From: Candidatus Methanomethylicus mesodigestus
Lineage (GTDB): Archaea > Thermoproteota > Methanomethylicia > Methanomethylicales > Methanomethylicaceae
Direction: 5' to 3'
DNA length: 42,361 nucleotides
NCBI GenBank assembly: GCA_001717005.1
Contig: MAGS01000030.1
Span: 46,517-88,877, forward strand
Shown: in pieces, positions 33,000-42,250 of the stretch
Layout of the letters: each line of letters begins with the position of its first letter
Position numbering within the stretch: the stretch's first letter is position 1
Made by a program: the position numbers and the translations under genes
The notes under the pieces: generated by a model
Databases searched by the model: none
What the model saw: the letters and a program-made list of their open reading frames with translations, nothing else
Told to the model about the DNA's origin: nothing

Positions 33000-33234
33000 A
33001 TTCGACCCTCACGATAAAAGAAGAGAGTAAGCGTCAGAATAATAAGCATTATGACGTGGCAGTCCCTGAATTAACAGGGCTACTTCATGCAAAGATAAAT
33101 GCGAGGGGCCGTGGTGTTGAGTTGTGCTGTTCTGTGCTGTGCCGTTAGCATACCTTTTTTAAGGCTTATGATGTAGCGTTTTCAATGAATGTGCTGGTTC
33201 AAGGCGATAGCCGGAGTGCTGGGGCGCATGATAA
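33000..33234. other. 235-bp AT-rich gap before the scrambled ABC operon
   Basis: I see no gene here. A small hairpin, CCCTG-AATTAA-CAGGG (about 33064-33079), and an imperfect repeat GTGCTGTTCTGTGCTGTGCC (about 33123-33142) are present. A TATA-like CTTTTTTAAGG (about 33154-33164) lies about 70 nt before the ABC ATPase start codon. Confidence 0.45.
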
Positions 33235-33632
33235 ATGAGTAAGGCATCCTACCACACGCCTGACGACGTTGCCGTTAAAGTCATGGGGCTGACAAAACGC
33301 TTTGGCAATTTAACCGCCGTTAACGACCTGAGTTTCGATATAAAGAAAGGCGAACTCTTTGGCTTCTTGGGTCCGAATGGTGCGGGAAAAACCACAACTA
33401 TTCGCATGTTAACGGGTCTTACAAAACCGACTTCCGGGACCGCAGCAATCGAGGGCTTTGACGTCGTGAAACAGACCGTGAAAGCGAAAGGGAAGATGGG
33501 AGTTGTTCCAGAAGTTTCAAATATTTTTGATGAAATGAGCGCGTGGGATAACCTGATCCTCTCAGCACAACTTTATGGCATACCTCAAGAGGAAAGAGGC
33601 CCGCGAGCGAAGGAACTGCTTGAAAACAACAC
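33235..33632 (+). pseudogene. ABC exporter ATPase, N-terminal fragment (cut by inversion)
   Basis: The first 130 or so residues are a normal DrrA/CcmA-type ABC ATPase: VMGLTKRFGNLTAVNDLSF, Walker A GPNGAGKTTT (about 44-53), the Q-loop region replaced by VVPEVSNIFDEMSAWDNL, and LYGIPQEERGPRAKELLE. The signature, Walker B and H-loop are missing here. The track ORF continues to 33936, but that part is the antisense of an ABC permease and not a real protein. The missing half lies inverted at 34021-34648. Base composition is more AT-rich than the neighbouring genes, which suggests acquisition from elsewhere. Confidence 0.88.
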
Positions 33633-34037
33633 AGGATTAGCTATGCCCGTTCCTGAAAGAAGCATTAATGGAATCGTCATGCCCGCTGACAAAATTACTC
33701 CAAACAAAACACCTGCGATTGCCTTTCCAGAGATCAATGCAAAGAAGGGAACGGGCGCGACCATTAACCTTTCAAAGGTGCCAGTCTGTTTCTCCAATAC
33801 CACTGCAACTGCCTCAATAGACGTTGTCCCAAACAGTACTGCAAGCGCAGTCAATCCAGAAATTGCAGTTGAGAGGTTAACCTGCCCTGCAAGCGAGAAT
33901 GCCAAGAATAACGAAATAGGCATCAACAATGCGTAGGTGAAGTTTGGCGCCTTAAAAAAATAGACTTTAGCATCCTTTTTTGCTATGCATAAAGCCTTGC
34001 TCAAATCTTGGCGAAGACCGTCACCCAACGCTTGCAC
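33622..34037 (-). pseudogene. ABC-2 type permease, N-terminal fragment (inside the inverted segment)
   Basis: On the minus strand this encodes the start of an ABC-2 exporter membrane subunit: an amphipathic N-terminus (KKDAKVYFFKAPNFTYALLMP), then hydrophobic helices such as ALLMPISLFLAFSLAG and ISGLTALAVLFGTTSIEAVAVVLE, then the ABC-2 loop TFERLMVAPVPFFALISGKAIAGVLFGV. It runs out at NPVLF where the 11-bp repeat lies. The last three helices are missing and are found on the plus strand at 34660-34978. The track start ATG 34076 overlaps the ATPase; GTG 34037 or TTG 34028 is more likely. Confidence 0.82.
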
Positions 34038-34648
34038 TTTTGCTCTTGCCCTCCTTTTCCCGGTGCATGATATCAAGGTTCAATCCAGTCAGCTTTACAA
34101 ACGCATCTTCCAAGCTTGGCTTCACAGTATTGATTGATACTATCCTTATGCTGTTCAGACGTGCAAAATCAGCGATAGATGGAATGGCATCCGAAACGCT
34201 CTCTACAGTAATTTTGAATTTGTTCGCATACTCTGAAACCGCGATTACCCCTCTCAAAGACTCGAGTCTGCTTCTCACGTTTTCCTCGATATCGAAAACG
34301 ACTTCAATCATGGGTTGGTTCTCTAGACTTGCCTTAAGTCTACCGGGGCTATCCATGGCTACAATACTCCCCTTATTGAGGATAGCAATCCTTTGGCAGA
34401 ACTGGTCGGCTTCTTCAATGTAGTGGGTGGTCATAAAAACAGTAGTTCCATCCTCGTTCAGGTCTCTAATTAGGGCCCTTATAATTCGGGCACTTTGAAC
34501 ATCAAGACCCGTAGTTGGTTCATCCAAGAAAAGTAGAGGCGGCTTATGCATCAGAGCCATTGCAATGGTCACTCGCCTTTTCATGCATTTTGAGAAAGTT
34601 CCCACGCGGTCATACCGCCGATCATAAATGTCAAACCATTTCATCGCG
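34021..34648 (-). pseudogene. ABC exporter ATPase, C-terminal fragment (inside the inverted segment)
   Basis: This fragment holds what the N-terminal part lacks: the signature region VGTFSKCMKRRVTIAMAL (FSKxM type, with Cys in place of the usual Gly), Walker B LLFLDEPTTGLD, D-loop, and H-loop MTTHYIEEADQF, then the C-terminal extension to KSKSASVG. The track ORF starts at 34680 from a fortuitous ATG. The real reading frame would enter from the other half of the gene. Joined to 33235-33632 through the repeat, it gives a frame-perfect 341-residue ATPase. Confidence 0.88.
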
Positions 34649-34659
34649 GTGTTTTTTTC

Positions 34660-34978
34660 TTCATTGACTTTTTCTTCCATGGGCGTCTTAGTGTCGGCTT
34701 ATGCCAAACGGGTTCCTGAAGCGCAAATGCTCGATAACTTCATCCGTTTTCCGATGGCTTTTCTTTCAGGAATATTCTTTCCATTAGCCAGCATACCTGT
34801 TCAATTGCAGTTCATCCCACGCCTATTGCCTCTGACTTATTCGGTGGAAGCATTGGATCTTTCGGTATCACAATTAGGTTTAAGTTACATTTATTTAATT
34901 GATATTGTAGTAATGGCTTTGTTTTCAGTTGCTTTGCTTCTTCTAGCCACTTTTGTACTACGCAAGAAAATGACTTGA
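34660..34978 (+). pseudogene. ABC-2 type permease, C-terminal fragment
   Basis: The plus-strand frame contains FSSMGVLVSAYAKRVPEAQML, NFIRFPMAFLSGIFFPLASIP (the ABC-2 family's FPL region), VQLQFIPRLLPLTYSVEAL and a final membrane helix YLIDIVVMALFSVALLLLATFVLRKK. This is the typical last third of an ABC-2 exporter permease. There is no proper start: the track's ATG 34628 lies in the inverted part. Joined to the N-terminal fragment through the repeat, it gives about 244 residues, a normal length. Confidence 0.85.
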
Positions 34979-35057
34979 TGTTTGGATTAGGCGGCGAATG
35001 GAGCATGACGCATTATAGAAAAAATTCCTTCTTCGTCCTAAAAAATCAAAAAAAAGC

Positions 35058-35071
35058 AGATTTAAGTATCG
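35058..35071 (+). promoter_or_regulatory. TATA-like box for the pilin-like gene
   Basis: GCAGATTTAAGTAT lies about 30-45 nt before the start codons at 35097/35103, the expected distance for an archaeal promoter with a short leader. Confidence 0.45.
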
Positions 35072-35096
35072 CGGTGCAGTGATGCTCTACGAGTGA

Positions 35097-36563
35097 GTGA
35101 ACATGAGGAGCAGAAAGGGAGTAACGCCAGTCATCGCGACAATTCTGCTTATCAGCATTGCCACGGCCACTGCAACCGTAATCTATTCGTACATGAGTGA
35201 TACAAGCGCCCTTCCGGAAGCAGAGCCGCTGGCATCCAGCATGCTGGAGTCGCTCAAGACAGTCGGCGTTAAAGGCTCCTCCAACGGGATATTCGACGTG
35301 TATGTAATGAACATAGGCGATATCGAATCAGTCGTCGACGTGCTCTACGTGAAGGACTTTACCGGAGCCGCAGTGGCCACTATTCCTGTCAATGTCTCAA
35401 TAGCGGTGGGACAGATCGTCGACTTCCAGCTCGACTCGTACCTTTATGGGAACGGCCCTTGGTCATGGTACGAGATACAGGGGGTCACCGCGCGTGGGAA
35501 TAAGTTCGACATGAGCCTCTTCGCCTCCCAGTCCGGCGCGCAGGCAATAGGTGAGCTGCCCGAAGGGGAGACGGACTCGTTGTACCCTGTCGTAAGGGTC
35601 ATCGTCAATGGGACAGATGTAACCACTGGCGAGGTCCTGCAGAATTTGACTTATGTGGATGGGCAGTTCTTCGACGTCACGACCGGAAAGCTGGTCTTCG
35701 ATGAAGCGTCGAGCCCTGCCACCGCCGTTGGGTTCGACTTTGAGACAGGTGCCTACAACATCAATCCTAATGGCGATGTGGCCAATCTTCGTTATGCGGA
35801 AGGAAATCCAAGCTCTAACAACGTAATATCGATCAACGTCCATGGCGACAGCTCTGGATCGATGATGAGCGCTAACTTCAGCGGCATCACATCCAACTAT
35901 AGATACTCCGCGTTAGTGCTATCATTTGGGTTCGAGTTGAACCCTAACGATTTCAATTCTATGAACGGTACGGTTCAATTCTGGGATTGGAGCAAAAACC
36001 AATACGTGACATCGGGCAACGGATACTGGGAATTCGACTCGTCCTCCATTTATTGGGTTTCCTATGGTCAAAATAACAAATGGCATAACTTTACTGTGAC
36101 TATGGATCTTGGATCTTTGATCGGCCCGAACGGGGAATGGTCGCTAATTCTCAACATAAGTACCTCCAATAATAACCTTAATGCGCTGAAATTCGATTAT
36201 TTGCACGTAAAGGAGGTTACTGAGAACGTTAACGGCATCGACACGCTCTTCTGCTACCAGCTCGTTGGCATCGACGAGTCAGTAGTTACCAAATTGCTCT
36301 TCTCGACCACAGGCATCTTCTCCGCAAACTCTGACTACAACATGGCGGTCTTCAATTTCGACACGCAGAGCTGGAACTACTTCAGCGTGATAAAGGGCAG
36401 TTCGGAGCTTCAGACAGTTGCCATTGAGGTCACATCCTCCTGCTCAAGCTACATCAATTCGACCAACTTCGTGATCATCAAGATCTCTCCTATTCAAGGG
36501 TCAAACTCAGTTGAGACGATCTTCACCGATCAGTCGAGGCTGATTGTGAGGACTCTAGAGTGA
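35097..36563 (+). CDS. large type IV pilin-like secreted surface protein
   Basis: This 488-residue protein has an archaeal pilin N-terminus: RSRKGVTPVIATILLISIATATATVIYSYM, with a short basic leader ending in Lys-Gly and then one hydrophobic helix (about 9-30). It fits the archaeal Pilin_N pattern processed by a PibD-type peptidase. The rest is strand-rich and exported. The segment at about 250-370 (FGFELNPNDFNSMNGTVQFW, then FTVTMDLGSLIG) looks like a beta-sandwich and is Asn-rich. It is much larger than ordinary pilins (about 130-200 aa), so it may be an adhesin or minor pilin. GTG 35097 and ATG 35103 are both possible starts. No pilus motor genes are nearby. Confidence 0.75.
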   Translation: MNMRSRKGVTPVIATILLISIATATATVIYSYMSDTSALPEAEPLASSMLESLKTVGVKGSSNGIFDVYVMNIGDIESVVDVLYVKDFTGAAVATIPVNVSIAVGQIVDFQLDSYLYGNGPWSWYEIQGVTARGNKFDMSLFASQSGAQAIGELPEGETDSLYPVVRVIVNGTDVTTGEVLQNLTYVDGQFFDVTTGKLVFDEASSPATAVGFDFETGAYNINPNGDVANLRYAEGNPSSNNVISINVHGDSSGSMMSANFSGITSNYRYSALVLSFGFELNPNDFNSMNGTVQFWDWSKNQYVTSGNGYWEFDSSSIYWVSYGQNNKWHNFTVTMDLGSLIGPNGEWSLILNISTSNNNLNALKFDYLHVKEVTENVNGIDTLFCYQLVGIDESVVTKLLFSTTGIFSANSDYNMAVFNFDTQSWNYFSVIKGSSELQTVAIEVTSSCSSYINSTNFVIIKISPIQGSNSVETIFTDQSRLIVRTLE

Positions 36564-36751
36564 CCGAAGGCAGACGATATTCACCCATGCTGAGTATGAA
36601 AGAGACGGATGCATGCCAATTCCGGCGTTTCGACCAGCCTATTCTTTTTCCTGTCGACTTGTATCGAGAGATGAAGTTGTGCTTGGAAAAAAATATAGGA
36701 GGCAGAGAAGAACAAGAACGAGAGATGAGGGAGCTTCTTGAAGATTACTGA
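36560..36751 (+). CDS. doubtful short ORF between the pilin-like gene and DUF2098 gene
   Basis: This is a 63-residue frame starting at a GTG that overlaps the pilin-like gene's stop (GTGA) and running 14 nt into the DUF2098 gene. The translation (PILFPVDLYREMKLCLEKN) has no motif I recognise. Overlaps on both sides favour coupling, but an AT-rich box (AAAAAAATATAGG, about 36687-36699) inside it looks like a promoter for the next gene, which argues against it. Confidence 0.3.
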   Translation: MTEGRRYSPMLSMKETDACQFRRFDQPILFPVDLYREMKLCLEKNIGGREEQEREMRELLEDY

Positions 36752-38452: not shown

Positions 38453-40123
38453 TTAGTGCGACGGGATGATCAAGTTCCTCTCGCCGGCTGGGACGAACTC
38501 CCTCAGCGCACCTTTTCCGAAGCAGAGCCTCGGGTGCGTGAAGTCGAACTTCAAGTCCTTGTCGGCAAAGGCTACCTTGACTAGCGGGTTGGTCGTCCAG
38601 GCGTCGTTCCTTCCACCGTGCGCTGCTGAAACGATGCCACAGTATGCTGACTGGTGGCCTACGTTGAGCGCATAGTTCGGGTAGTTGGTGCCCCTCAGGT
38701 TGAACGGCAGACCCTCGTCGCTCCTGTAAGAGAAGCTGTTGACTGAACCGCACTGGTCCTGCTGGTCATAGCCATAGAACCCAAGCCTGCCCATCTCCTC
38801 CTTATGGAGCAGCTGGCTCAGATACCAAGCGTTGATACCGGCAGTAGAGTGGCCTGTCGCCAGAGACACTGCAACGCCTGCACCTGCAGATACGACTGCT
38901 GCCCTCTGTGATCCACCGAAGTGGGTCTCCATGAGCGCCGGGAACTTCTCGTATTGCTCAAGGCCGTATAGGGTTACCTCTGTCCCTACATCCTTGATCA
39001 GGTCCCAGCTCGGCTTGCTCTTGCCGAAGCCGCCGAATTTCTTCTTGACGTAGTCTGCACCGTAGTAGCAGTAGTCGTCAAGGACGTCATCAGTGTAGGT
39101 GCATGTTGCGTATTGGGTGAATCCGACACCACCGGACATGTAGCTACCAAGGTAGATCTGGTCGTAGAGGACTGCAGCCATTGAGATTGCCTCAAGTGCA
39201 ACCCATACAGGGTCCTGCGGCTTTACCCTCGATGCCTGGCAGATATCCGCCATGTATCCGAGAGGTATACCACCGGGCTCGTTCGGGCCCCTTGCGCGCC
39301 TCCATGGCATGAGCGTCCCCATCTCGATGACCTCCGCGTGCTTTGCAGCGAACGCGAACTCACCGATTGCGGCCTCACCAGCCATCAGCTTGTAGGCGTT
39401 CACCATTGCCATGCAGATCTGCATAGCGGCCCACCTTGACATGGTTCCACCGTCGCAAGTCATTGAAACGATGGTTGGCATGTGGCAGACCTGGTAGATC
39501 TTCTTGCCGATAGCCTTCTTTAGAGAGGCAGCTTGGTCAGCAGGGAATGCCTTGTTTATGTCGATCAGCATCCTCTTGTCAATCTCATCGGCCAACTCGT
39601 CGTCGCCGGTGAAGACCTTGACATAGCTGTCCGACACAAGACCTGGGTCGGTCTCAACCATGTGCTCTTGGATGACTGCTGCGCCTGGGAGTGCGTGGTT
39701 CAGCACCTCAAGGTAGTGGTTGACAGTTTCAGGAGTCACTTCCTTGCCAAGACGCTTCTGCAACACAGTATGGGCAGAATCAAGACCTACTATCACGGTC
39801 CTCCTAATGTCGTGCCACATCTGCTGCATCGCGGCGTTGTTGACAAAGTGCAGATCGTCGCCCTCTACGTATATGTCAGTGTTGGAAATCCTGTATGGCA
39901 TCAGTACCCTCTGCCCCATCGGTATGCCACCGAGGTGCATGTCAGGGTTGTAGAATGGGACGGACCTCTCCTTTGCCACCTTCTTGGCAGCTTCTACGAA
40001 CTCCCTCTTCCTCTTCGACTGCTTCCAGCCGTCATAGATGTAGTATTTTGTGTTCTTATCCTCTGGCGCCTCTTTGAACTTCTTGCGAAGCGCTTCTATG
40101 AACATTTTCTTCTCTGAGCTCAT
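38453..40123 (-). CDS. mcrA: methyl-coenzyme M reductase alpha subunit
   Basis: McrA is the catalytic subunit of MCR, releasing methane from methyl-CoM and CoB with cofactor F430. The 556 aa length is normal. Visible landmarks are the F430 axial Gln region [15 protein letters not shown], the methyl-His region [12 protein letters not shown], the [11 protein letters not shown] Arg site, [27 protein letters not shown] (Gln that can be methylated), and [13 protein letters not shown] holding the thioglycine and adjacent Cys. These fit a true methanogenic MCR, not an alkane-type Mcr (inference from conserved active-site blocks). ATGAGC follows GGAGGT by 8 nt. It is the last gene of mcrBGA. Confidence 0.97.
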
Positions 40124-40137
40124 TTCATGCTACCTCC

Positions 40138-40914
40138 TTAGATCCCCTTGACCCTATTCGGATCAAAGCCTGCCTCCGTCCTGAGCATATGGAGTCGTTC
40201 GATGAAGCTGACGACCTCTTTGTCGGTCCTGAAGGCTACATCTTCGACTCTATATTCGCTCGTCCTCTTTCTGAGCTCGTCTTCCTTGATTGGCTTGCCA
40301 ACCGAAATTGGCTTGTCCAGAGGAACGCCGATCTGGTCCTTGACATAGACCACTTCGCCGGTCTTCTTGTCGAACTGGAACCTGCGGAGCGCGTCGAACA
40401 TCATGCCATTCTCGTCAAGTCTCAGTGAGTGGCCGTGGACGGTTGCACCCCTGATCCCGCACCTTGCTGGATCAAAGATTTCAGTCTCAACAAGCTCCTT
40501 GGCAACCTTCTCAAGATCCCTTTCCCTAGCTTCGAGCGGAACGCGTCCTGAGAGTACACCAATGTCTACACCACGGTACCTTGTGTGACCTGTCCATGCT
40601 CTCATGTACGGGGTCAACGGCGTGAAGTAGACGGAGTCGGTCATTTGTATGTACCTGATCCTGTCGCCAGCCTTTGCGCCTGGTGTCGGCTCGACAAGCT
40701 CCCTGATAGGGCACGCCGGCTCACCCATCTCTTCCAGAGGCGGGTGGACGCTCTTGTAAGCCTCGCCTGGGACTCTGTGGCCCATGAGCCTCACAATATC
40801 GTCATCGCTGACGGTCCTTAGCTTCTCAAGCTTGTAGGATGGGTCCATGTACTTCTTCCTATTTGCGGCAACCTTGGATTTGCCAGGATAGAATTGTGGT
40901 TTATAAGTTGCCAT
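40138..40914 (-). CDS. mcrG: methyl-coenzyme M reductase gamma subunit
   Basis: McrG is the gamma subunit of the (alpha-beta-gamma)2 MCR complex and contributes to the active-site channel. The 258-residue product has the family blocks [94 protein letters not shown] and [26 protein letters not shown]. Its start follows the mcrB stop by 1 nt, with GGAGGAG at the end of mcrB. It ends with TAAGGAGGT, which supplies the ribosome-binding site of mcrA. Confidence 0.97.
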
Positions 40915-40915
40915 T

Positions 40916-42250
40916 TTAGACTCCTCCCTTGATTGCTACTGCTGCCTCGTTGACATACTTCAGAGGCTCCCTCAGTTCAGGTACTTCACTGAGCACTTCA
41001 CCAGTCGTGCCGGAGATCTTCTCTGGCGTGTAGATGGTTGTGCCAGCGTCAAGAGCTACTGCAGCTGCGACGCACGGGATTGTGAAGCCCTTGCTGTGCC
41101 TTGTCACGATATGGTTGCCGGCAAAGACTGCAGGATTTCCTCCGCCGTATATCGAGTGGCTGAAGAAGGCCATCTCTACACCTGTACCTTCAACTCTGCC
41201 GAAGTCTACACCTGGCAGGCTCGTCTCCCTTTCGACGAGGTCGTTGAAGTAGATGAAGACAGACGGGGTATGCTGCATAGACCTTGCTGCGCCGCAGGTC
41301 ACCATTGTTCCTGCAAGCAGGCCTGCAGAGGCATATGCATTCCATTTGCTGAGGTCATCAGTTGTGTAGTTGACATAGCCCGAAGGCGCCTTCGCGAGCG
41401 GCTTGATTATGCCATCTGCGATTGCCCTCTTGACAGTTGAGACAACAACATCGCCGAGGGTTCCCTTCTTGGCATTTTCCTTGACTATATCATAGACCAA
41501 ATTGTTCACATTCAGCCCCTGATAAGCAAGGCCCATTAGGTGAAGCCTCTCGAAGTCGCCAATGGCATCGCCCATCTCGAACATTGCCGCCTGCTCCAAG
41601 ATTGAGGATAGGGCCGCAGCGTTCATGGCGTTCTTCTTGGTAATCAAGGCAATGTGTGCGCATGGAACGTTCCTGAGCGCATAACCCATGCCTTCATTCT
41701 GTTGTGGAACTGAGAGTAATGAGGCCACGTTTCCGCCAAGCATTTCCATTGTTTGAGGATACCTCCCCCAAACAGAGGCATGAACCAAGTCCGCATCCCA
41801 GATGTTGACTTTGAATTGGTCAACGATTGCACAACAGAGGGCTGCTGCCGTTGAGGTTGCTCCAGTAGTGTATTCTACGCCTGCATTAAGCCTCTTGGCT
41901 GGGACCTTAACGAGAAGGTGCTTCCCACCCTTGAGGACTTTCACTTCTGTATCATCGTTTGCGCTAACCTGGAGGTTCTTCTTGACTTCGTCGGCTATGC
42001 TTGCGGCGCTCTTAACGAGATCCACTTTGAGGGACCTGCCGTTAATGACGCACCCCTTGCCACCGACTGCTCCAGTCGCAAGAGCTTTCTCAACGCCCTC
42101 TAGATTGACGGAGACGCACTGTTTAACGTAGGATACCATCTTTTGTATCGCTGGGTTTTGCAATGGACTCAATGCCTCTAAAGGAACCTTAGAGGCGAAA
42201 ACTCGTCCTCGATCGTCGTATAGATCTACTTTATCTGAATATTTCGCCAT
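40916..42250 (-). CDS. mcrB: methyl-coenzyme M reductase beta subunit
   Basis: McrB is the beta subunit of MCR and binds coenzyme B and F430 together with McrA. The 444 aa length is typical. Features include [27 protein letters not shown] at the start, [35 protein letters not shown], the loop [20 protein letters not shown] (a conserved active-site tyrosine lies here), and [28 protein letters not shown] lies about 6 nt before ATG 42250. It is first in mcrBGA; mcrD and mcrC, usually between B and G, are instead at 9.7-10.7 kb. Confidence 0.97.

Follow-up and report, generated by a model that had tools for sequence, protein, structure and literature searches.

Between positions 33235 and 34978 of the window, the whole 42,361-nucleotide stretch of DNA that was analysed, four gene pieces represent only two genes, an ABC exporter ATPase and its ABC-2 permease. 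The outer two pieces are on the plus strand and the inner two on the minus strand (Table 1). The question raised by this arrangement is whether it reflects a phase-variable switch, a fixed inactivation or an assembly error, the three outcomes offered by the sequence-only reading of the locus. Inactivation that is fixed, or at least accidental, fits best. We consider that a real and recent illegitimate (microhomology) inversion probably knocked out a laterally acquired DrrAB-type exporter, a reading to which we assign a probability of roughly 0.75.

Table 1 Features of the split exporter operon and its surroundings (window positions; a caret marks a cut)
Feature	Position	Strand	Remarks
Low-G+C island: broken exporter operon and pilin-like gene	33055..36677		3.6 kb
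DrrA-like ABC ATPase, N-terminal part	33235..33624	+	residues 1-130
Left arm of the proposed inverted repeat	33622..33632	+	spans left junction (GAA^AACAACAC)
Inverted segment	33625..34638	-	1014 bp; cuts slide by 2 bp: 33623-33625 / 34638-34640
ABC-2 permease, N-terminal part (...TGIANPVLF)	33625..34076	-	right-hand limit approximate
ATPase, C-terminal part, from WFDIYDRR...	34021..34638	-	Walker B LLFLDEPTTGLD; DrrA1-3_C domain
ABC-2 permease, C-terminal part, FIAVFFSSLTFSS... to stop	34639..34978	+	
Right arm of the proposed inverted repeat	34649..34659	+	10 bp outside true right junction, in native permease
Secreted protein, archaellin/type IV pilin N-terminal domain	35097..36563	+	second gene of the island
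McrBGA	38453..42250		

The minus strand of the inverted segment encodes first the C-terminal ATPase part and then the N-terminal part of the permease, which overlaps the ATPase 3' end as it does in homologous operons. The ATPase pieces fall on positions 1-90 and 82-137 of the Pfam family ABC_tran and the permease pieces on positions 29-123 and 135-206 of ABC2_membrane; each half of the permease scores above the Pfam threshold of PF01061. The open frames and these complementary positions confirm the anatomy first proposed, two split genes with their middle pieces inverted. Once restored, the ATPase scores 327.7 bits against TIGR01188 (DrrA-type) and passes the curated cut-off of 312.45. The best NCBIfam match of the restored permease is drrB, at 61.9 bits, below the drrB cut-off of 223. 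An intact DrrA-type ATPase would be expected to keep Walker A, Walker B and the ABC signature. Here Walker A (GPNGAGKTTT, in the N-terminal part) and Walker B are intact, and the signature in the C-terminal part, FSKCMK within FSKCMKRR, has Cys where Gly is expected. Judged by its sequence, the restored ATPase is a broken member of the DrrA-type exporter ATPases and is predicted to be non-working.

Intact homologous operons in other archaea bear out the proposal that a single inversion split both genes. When named archaeal genomes were searched, closer pairs emerged in L070 and L071 (two Bathyarchaeota MAGs) and in L072 and L073 (uncultured archaea). The two Bathyarchaeota operons are 58-61% (ATPase) and 62-66% (permease) identical to the restored proteins, and the closest orthologues are those of Bathyarchaeota and of two species of another genus (G008 and G012); an orthologue of the exporter was sought in G001-G003 and was not found. 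The halves that are separate here are single genes in L070, L071, L073 and L003 (the G012 locus), as would be expected if the locus is a rearranged pseudogene. Archaeal DrrA/DrrB-type operons (L070, L071 and L003) resemble the restored pair in having both families, at 55-66% identity, and in their gene order, the 3' end of the ATPase gene running into the 5' end of the permease gene. They are intact, whereas here one inversion has split both genes and the signature Gly has become Cys. The comparison with related genomes that had been proposed as a check supports the flipped order, since both proteins of L070, L071 and L073 align without gaps to the restored proteins across both junctions. More widely, the length around the junctions is unchanged in 69 of the 77 ATPase matches and in 23 of the 30 permease matches. 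In L071 (6216-8708) a tandem of two related permease genes stands behind the ATPase gene. Their identity to the restored permease is 39% and 66%, and the exporter may thus have a form with two permeases. A gene adjacent to the exporter is one 475-aa frame in G012 (L038 12876-14303) and appears to be split into two shorter frames in G008:C50 (L039 15452-16024 and 14595-15455). A second apparently broken permease in the genome under study (C45:10225-10413) is a piece at a contig end and was probably just cut off there.

The cuts were located by a scan of every cut pair lying no more than 30 nt from the junctions, 3,721 in total; the proteins that each pair would yield were scored against eight homologues. 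The best pair is 33625/34638 (score 5809), and it brings both proteins back to the length of their homologues. Both frames are open in 762 of the 3,721 pairs, so open frames are weak evidence for any particular cut, and a flip made by hand that yields two open frames cannot by itself locate the breakpoints. The cut position can slide by exactly 2 bp with the ancestor unchanged. The restored sites are CTGCTTGAA^TGGTTTGAC and GTGTTGTT^TTTCATCGCGG, with CTTGAATGGTTTGAC and GTGTTGTTTTTCATCGCG as the probable intact junctions (junction bases CTTGAA^TGGTTT and GTTGTT^TTTCAT). As far as the homologues show, the inversion is thus one of 1,014 bp, conservative to the base. Apart from the 2-bp overlap, the likeness of the two cut sites is at the random level: 7 of 30 flanking positions are identical, against a random mean of 7.5. 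Longer inverted repeats occur near the cuts (I7, I8 and I10), none of them positioned at a cut.

The sequence-only reading had placed the breakpoints at an inverted repeat with 10 of 11 bases matching, and had held that a flip there reverts perfectly. Such a flip does open both frames, giving a 341-aa ATPase and a continuous permease frame, but the reversion is not perfect, nor are the breakpoints at the repeat. Compared with every aligned homologue, the ATPase gains 6 residues (LLENNTAMK-WFD; LLENNTAMKWFD) and the permease lacks 6 (IANP------VFFSS). The outcome is the same for flips made both ways, with and without the arms: open frames and lengths off by 6 residues. The cut at the repeat scores 5657, which is 152 points below the best pair. 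A 10/11 match was reached in 1 of 150 random boxes of equal size and is thus not wholly expected by chance. Its origin lies in the restored permease gene, where the two copies of the near-repeat GTGTTGTTTTTC / GTGTTTTTTTC lie 18 nt apart and encode VLFF and VFFS within a single hydrophobic stretch. The inversion moved one copy of this T-rich near-repeat across, and the inverted repeat arose as a by-product. The 18-nt offset is a multiple of three, which is why a flip at the repeat keeps both frames open.

The restored frames are free of further stops and frameshifts over 1,740 coding sites. A stop would arise from 3.8% of the single substitutions possible in these frames, so the inversion is probably recent, and we estimate a neutral divergence since the break of less than roughly 2-4%, depending on the assumed indel rate. 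Some change in the ATPase is nevertheless apparent. The signature position is Gly in 76 of 76 homologous ATPase matches and Cys in the restored ATPase; the sole other match with Cys (L042) is this genome itself. The ATPase branch measures 0.50, about four times longer than the 0.13 of the nearest Bathyarchaeota pairs. Both the Gly-to-Cys change and the long branch fit relaxed constraint. Private changes at ATPase sites otherwise invariant in ingroup and outgroups number 11 here versus 3-4 in the other sequences, counts that are uncorrected for branch length. The decay would be slight, because most of the private substitutions are conservative, and this speaks against the inactivation reading.

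The operon shares a low-G+C island with a pilin-like gene. The G+C content is 0.471 for the island, 0.448 for the operon and 0.542 for the remainder of the window. On one side the island is flanked by a gene resembling methanogenesis marker 2, on the other by HAD and mcr genes. Its neighbours are genes of methanogenesis, namely those for McrBGA, the component A2 ATPase (TIGR03269, 743 bits) and the marker 2-like protein. In G001, the closest relative compared, about 155 bp stand between the flanks in place of the island, and the flanks are about 80-85% identical in nucleotide sequence where aligned. The island is missing at this position from all three relatives checked (G001, G003 and G012), and in G003 and G012, too, the marker 2 gene lies close to the HAD gene. 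Inspection of the island ends by eye for a target-site duplication gave no clear one. Acquisition by lateral transfer would be the simplest reading of the island. The exporter seems dispensable in G008 too, because the orthologous ATPase gene of that genome (L004, G008:C50:30874-31866), which lies near a contig end, is interrupted by an in-frame TAA and encodes Asp instead of the first Gly of Walker A. More than one lineage thus seems able to do without the pump.

For an assembler to turn a segment round in error, a long repeat has to mislead it. No repeat of sufficient length lies at the cuts, and there is no N in the window. The possibility that the cell carries an intact operon and that the inversion arose during sequencing or assembly draws some weight from the state of the genome, a draft of 1.43 Mb with 88 contigs and a completeness of 89.6%, and from the finding that amplification chimeras are mostly inverted joins (PMC1855051). 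These chimeras, however, have an intervening deletion and one junction (PMC1855051), so the two junctions seen here, base-exact complements without loss, are not what they would be expected to produce. The Gly-to-Cys change in the signature is independent evidence of a damaged gene. Assembly error, and artefact in general, is thus an improbable source of the inversion.

We regard it as decidedly unlikely that a site-specific recombinase flips the segment to and fro, switching the exporter on and off. One flip does restore two genes that hold no other nonsense or frameshift, otherwise intact frames are what a reversible switch would also show, and a minority of cells might carry the segment in the other orientation; there is in addition the 10/11 repeat near the junctions, and the assembly has three tyrosine recombinase matches. 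All three are on contigs other than that of the window. The evidence against a switch can be summarised as (i) the actual cut sites form no inverted repeat, having a 2-bp overlap and 7/30 identity where an inverton would have terminal inverted repeats; (ii) a flip at the repeat makes each protein wrong by 6 residues; (iii) the ON form would carry Cys at the near-invariant signature Gly; (iv) known phase switches typically have terminal repeats of 10-20 bp and are often intergenic, and six archaeal data sets yielded no such switch (PMC5903667). A search for a serine recombinase across the assembly gave no match, although a missing recombinase is possible since the assembly is about 90% complete. 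Serine-type recombination sites, which would have a 2-bp core, were considered and rejected on the same absence of a match and on flanks that have no similarity. Described invertons (PMC5903667, PMC11892184) resemble this inversion in its size of about 1 kb and its conservative joints. They differ from it in that here the cuts are without an inverted repeat and both in coding sequence, no recombinase is adjacent and the assembly has a single orientation of the segment; a second copy of the operon or a contig with the other orientation was sought in the assembly and none was found. A reversible archaeal switch that dispenses with conventional inverted repeats and uncouples ATPase and permease at once is very improbable. 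Such a switch, if true, would matter far more than an accidental inversion, but the evidence points the other way.

Scarcely credible is a one-off recombination, without any switch, between the short inverted repeat GAAAACAACAC/GTGTTTTTTTC: the repeat is present and equally good matches are as rare as stated above, but the ancestor would need 6 more ATPase and 6 fewer permease residues, which no aligned homologue has, the cut falls 152 points short, the arms are a near-repeat of the intact permease gene, and the true cuts have only 2 bp in common, the repeat lying off the right-hand one.

We propose that a DrrAB-type ABC exporter operon would have arrived by lateral transfer, in the 3.6-kb island next to the mcr region. 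More recently the 1,014-bp piece, which begins midway through the ATPase gene and ends midway through the permease gene, would have been excised and rejoined in reverse, the number of bases staying the same, by illegitimate recombination with at most 2 bp of microhomology, either end joining or replication template switching. Conservative joining at 2 bp fits these two routes and does not fit homologous or site-specific recombination. The exporter would thereby be lost: translation from the original start is predicted to yield only a shortened ATPase with a tail of about 100 antisense-coded residues, and no complete permease could be made from the inverted order.

Such an accidental illegitimate inversion has partial counterparts. 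The spontaneous small inversions of Salmonella (PMC3411829) are likewise accidental rearrangements without a dedicated recombinase; those with experimental support have inverted homology of at least about 12 bp at their ends, compared with 2 bp here, which places this case at the low end. Rearranged pseudogenes in acquired genes share with this locus the recent gain, the lower G+C and the loss of function by a dispensable pair, and the homologue in G008 is itself broken by a stop codon. Those pseudogenes carry stops, frameshifts or deletions, whereas the damage here is one clean inversion. The locus is a well-preserved, clean micro-inversion with joints almost without homology, probably seen shortly after the event, in a methanogenic archaeon that is uncultured. 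Micro-inversions of this kind may serve in studying the rejoining of broken DNA in archaea.
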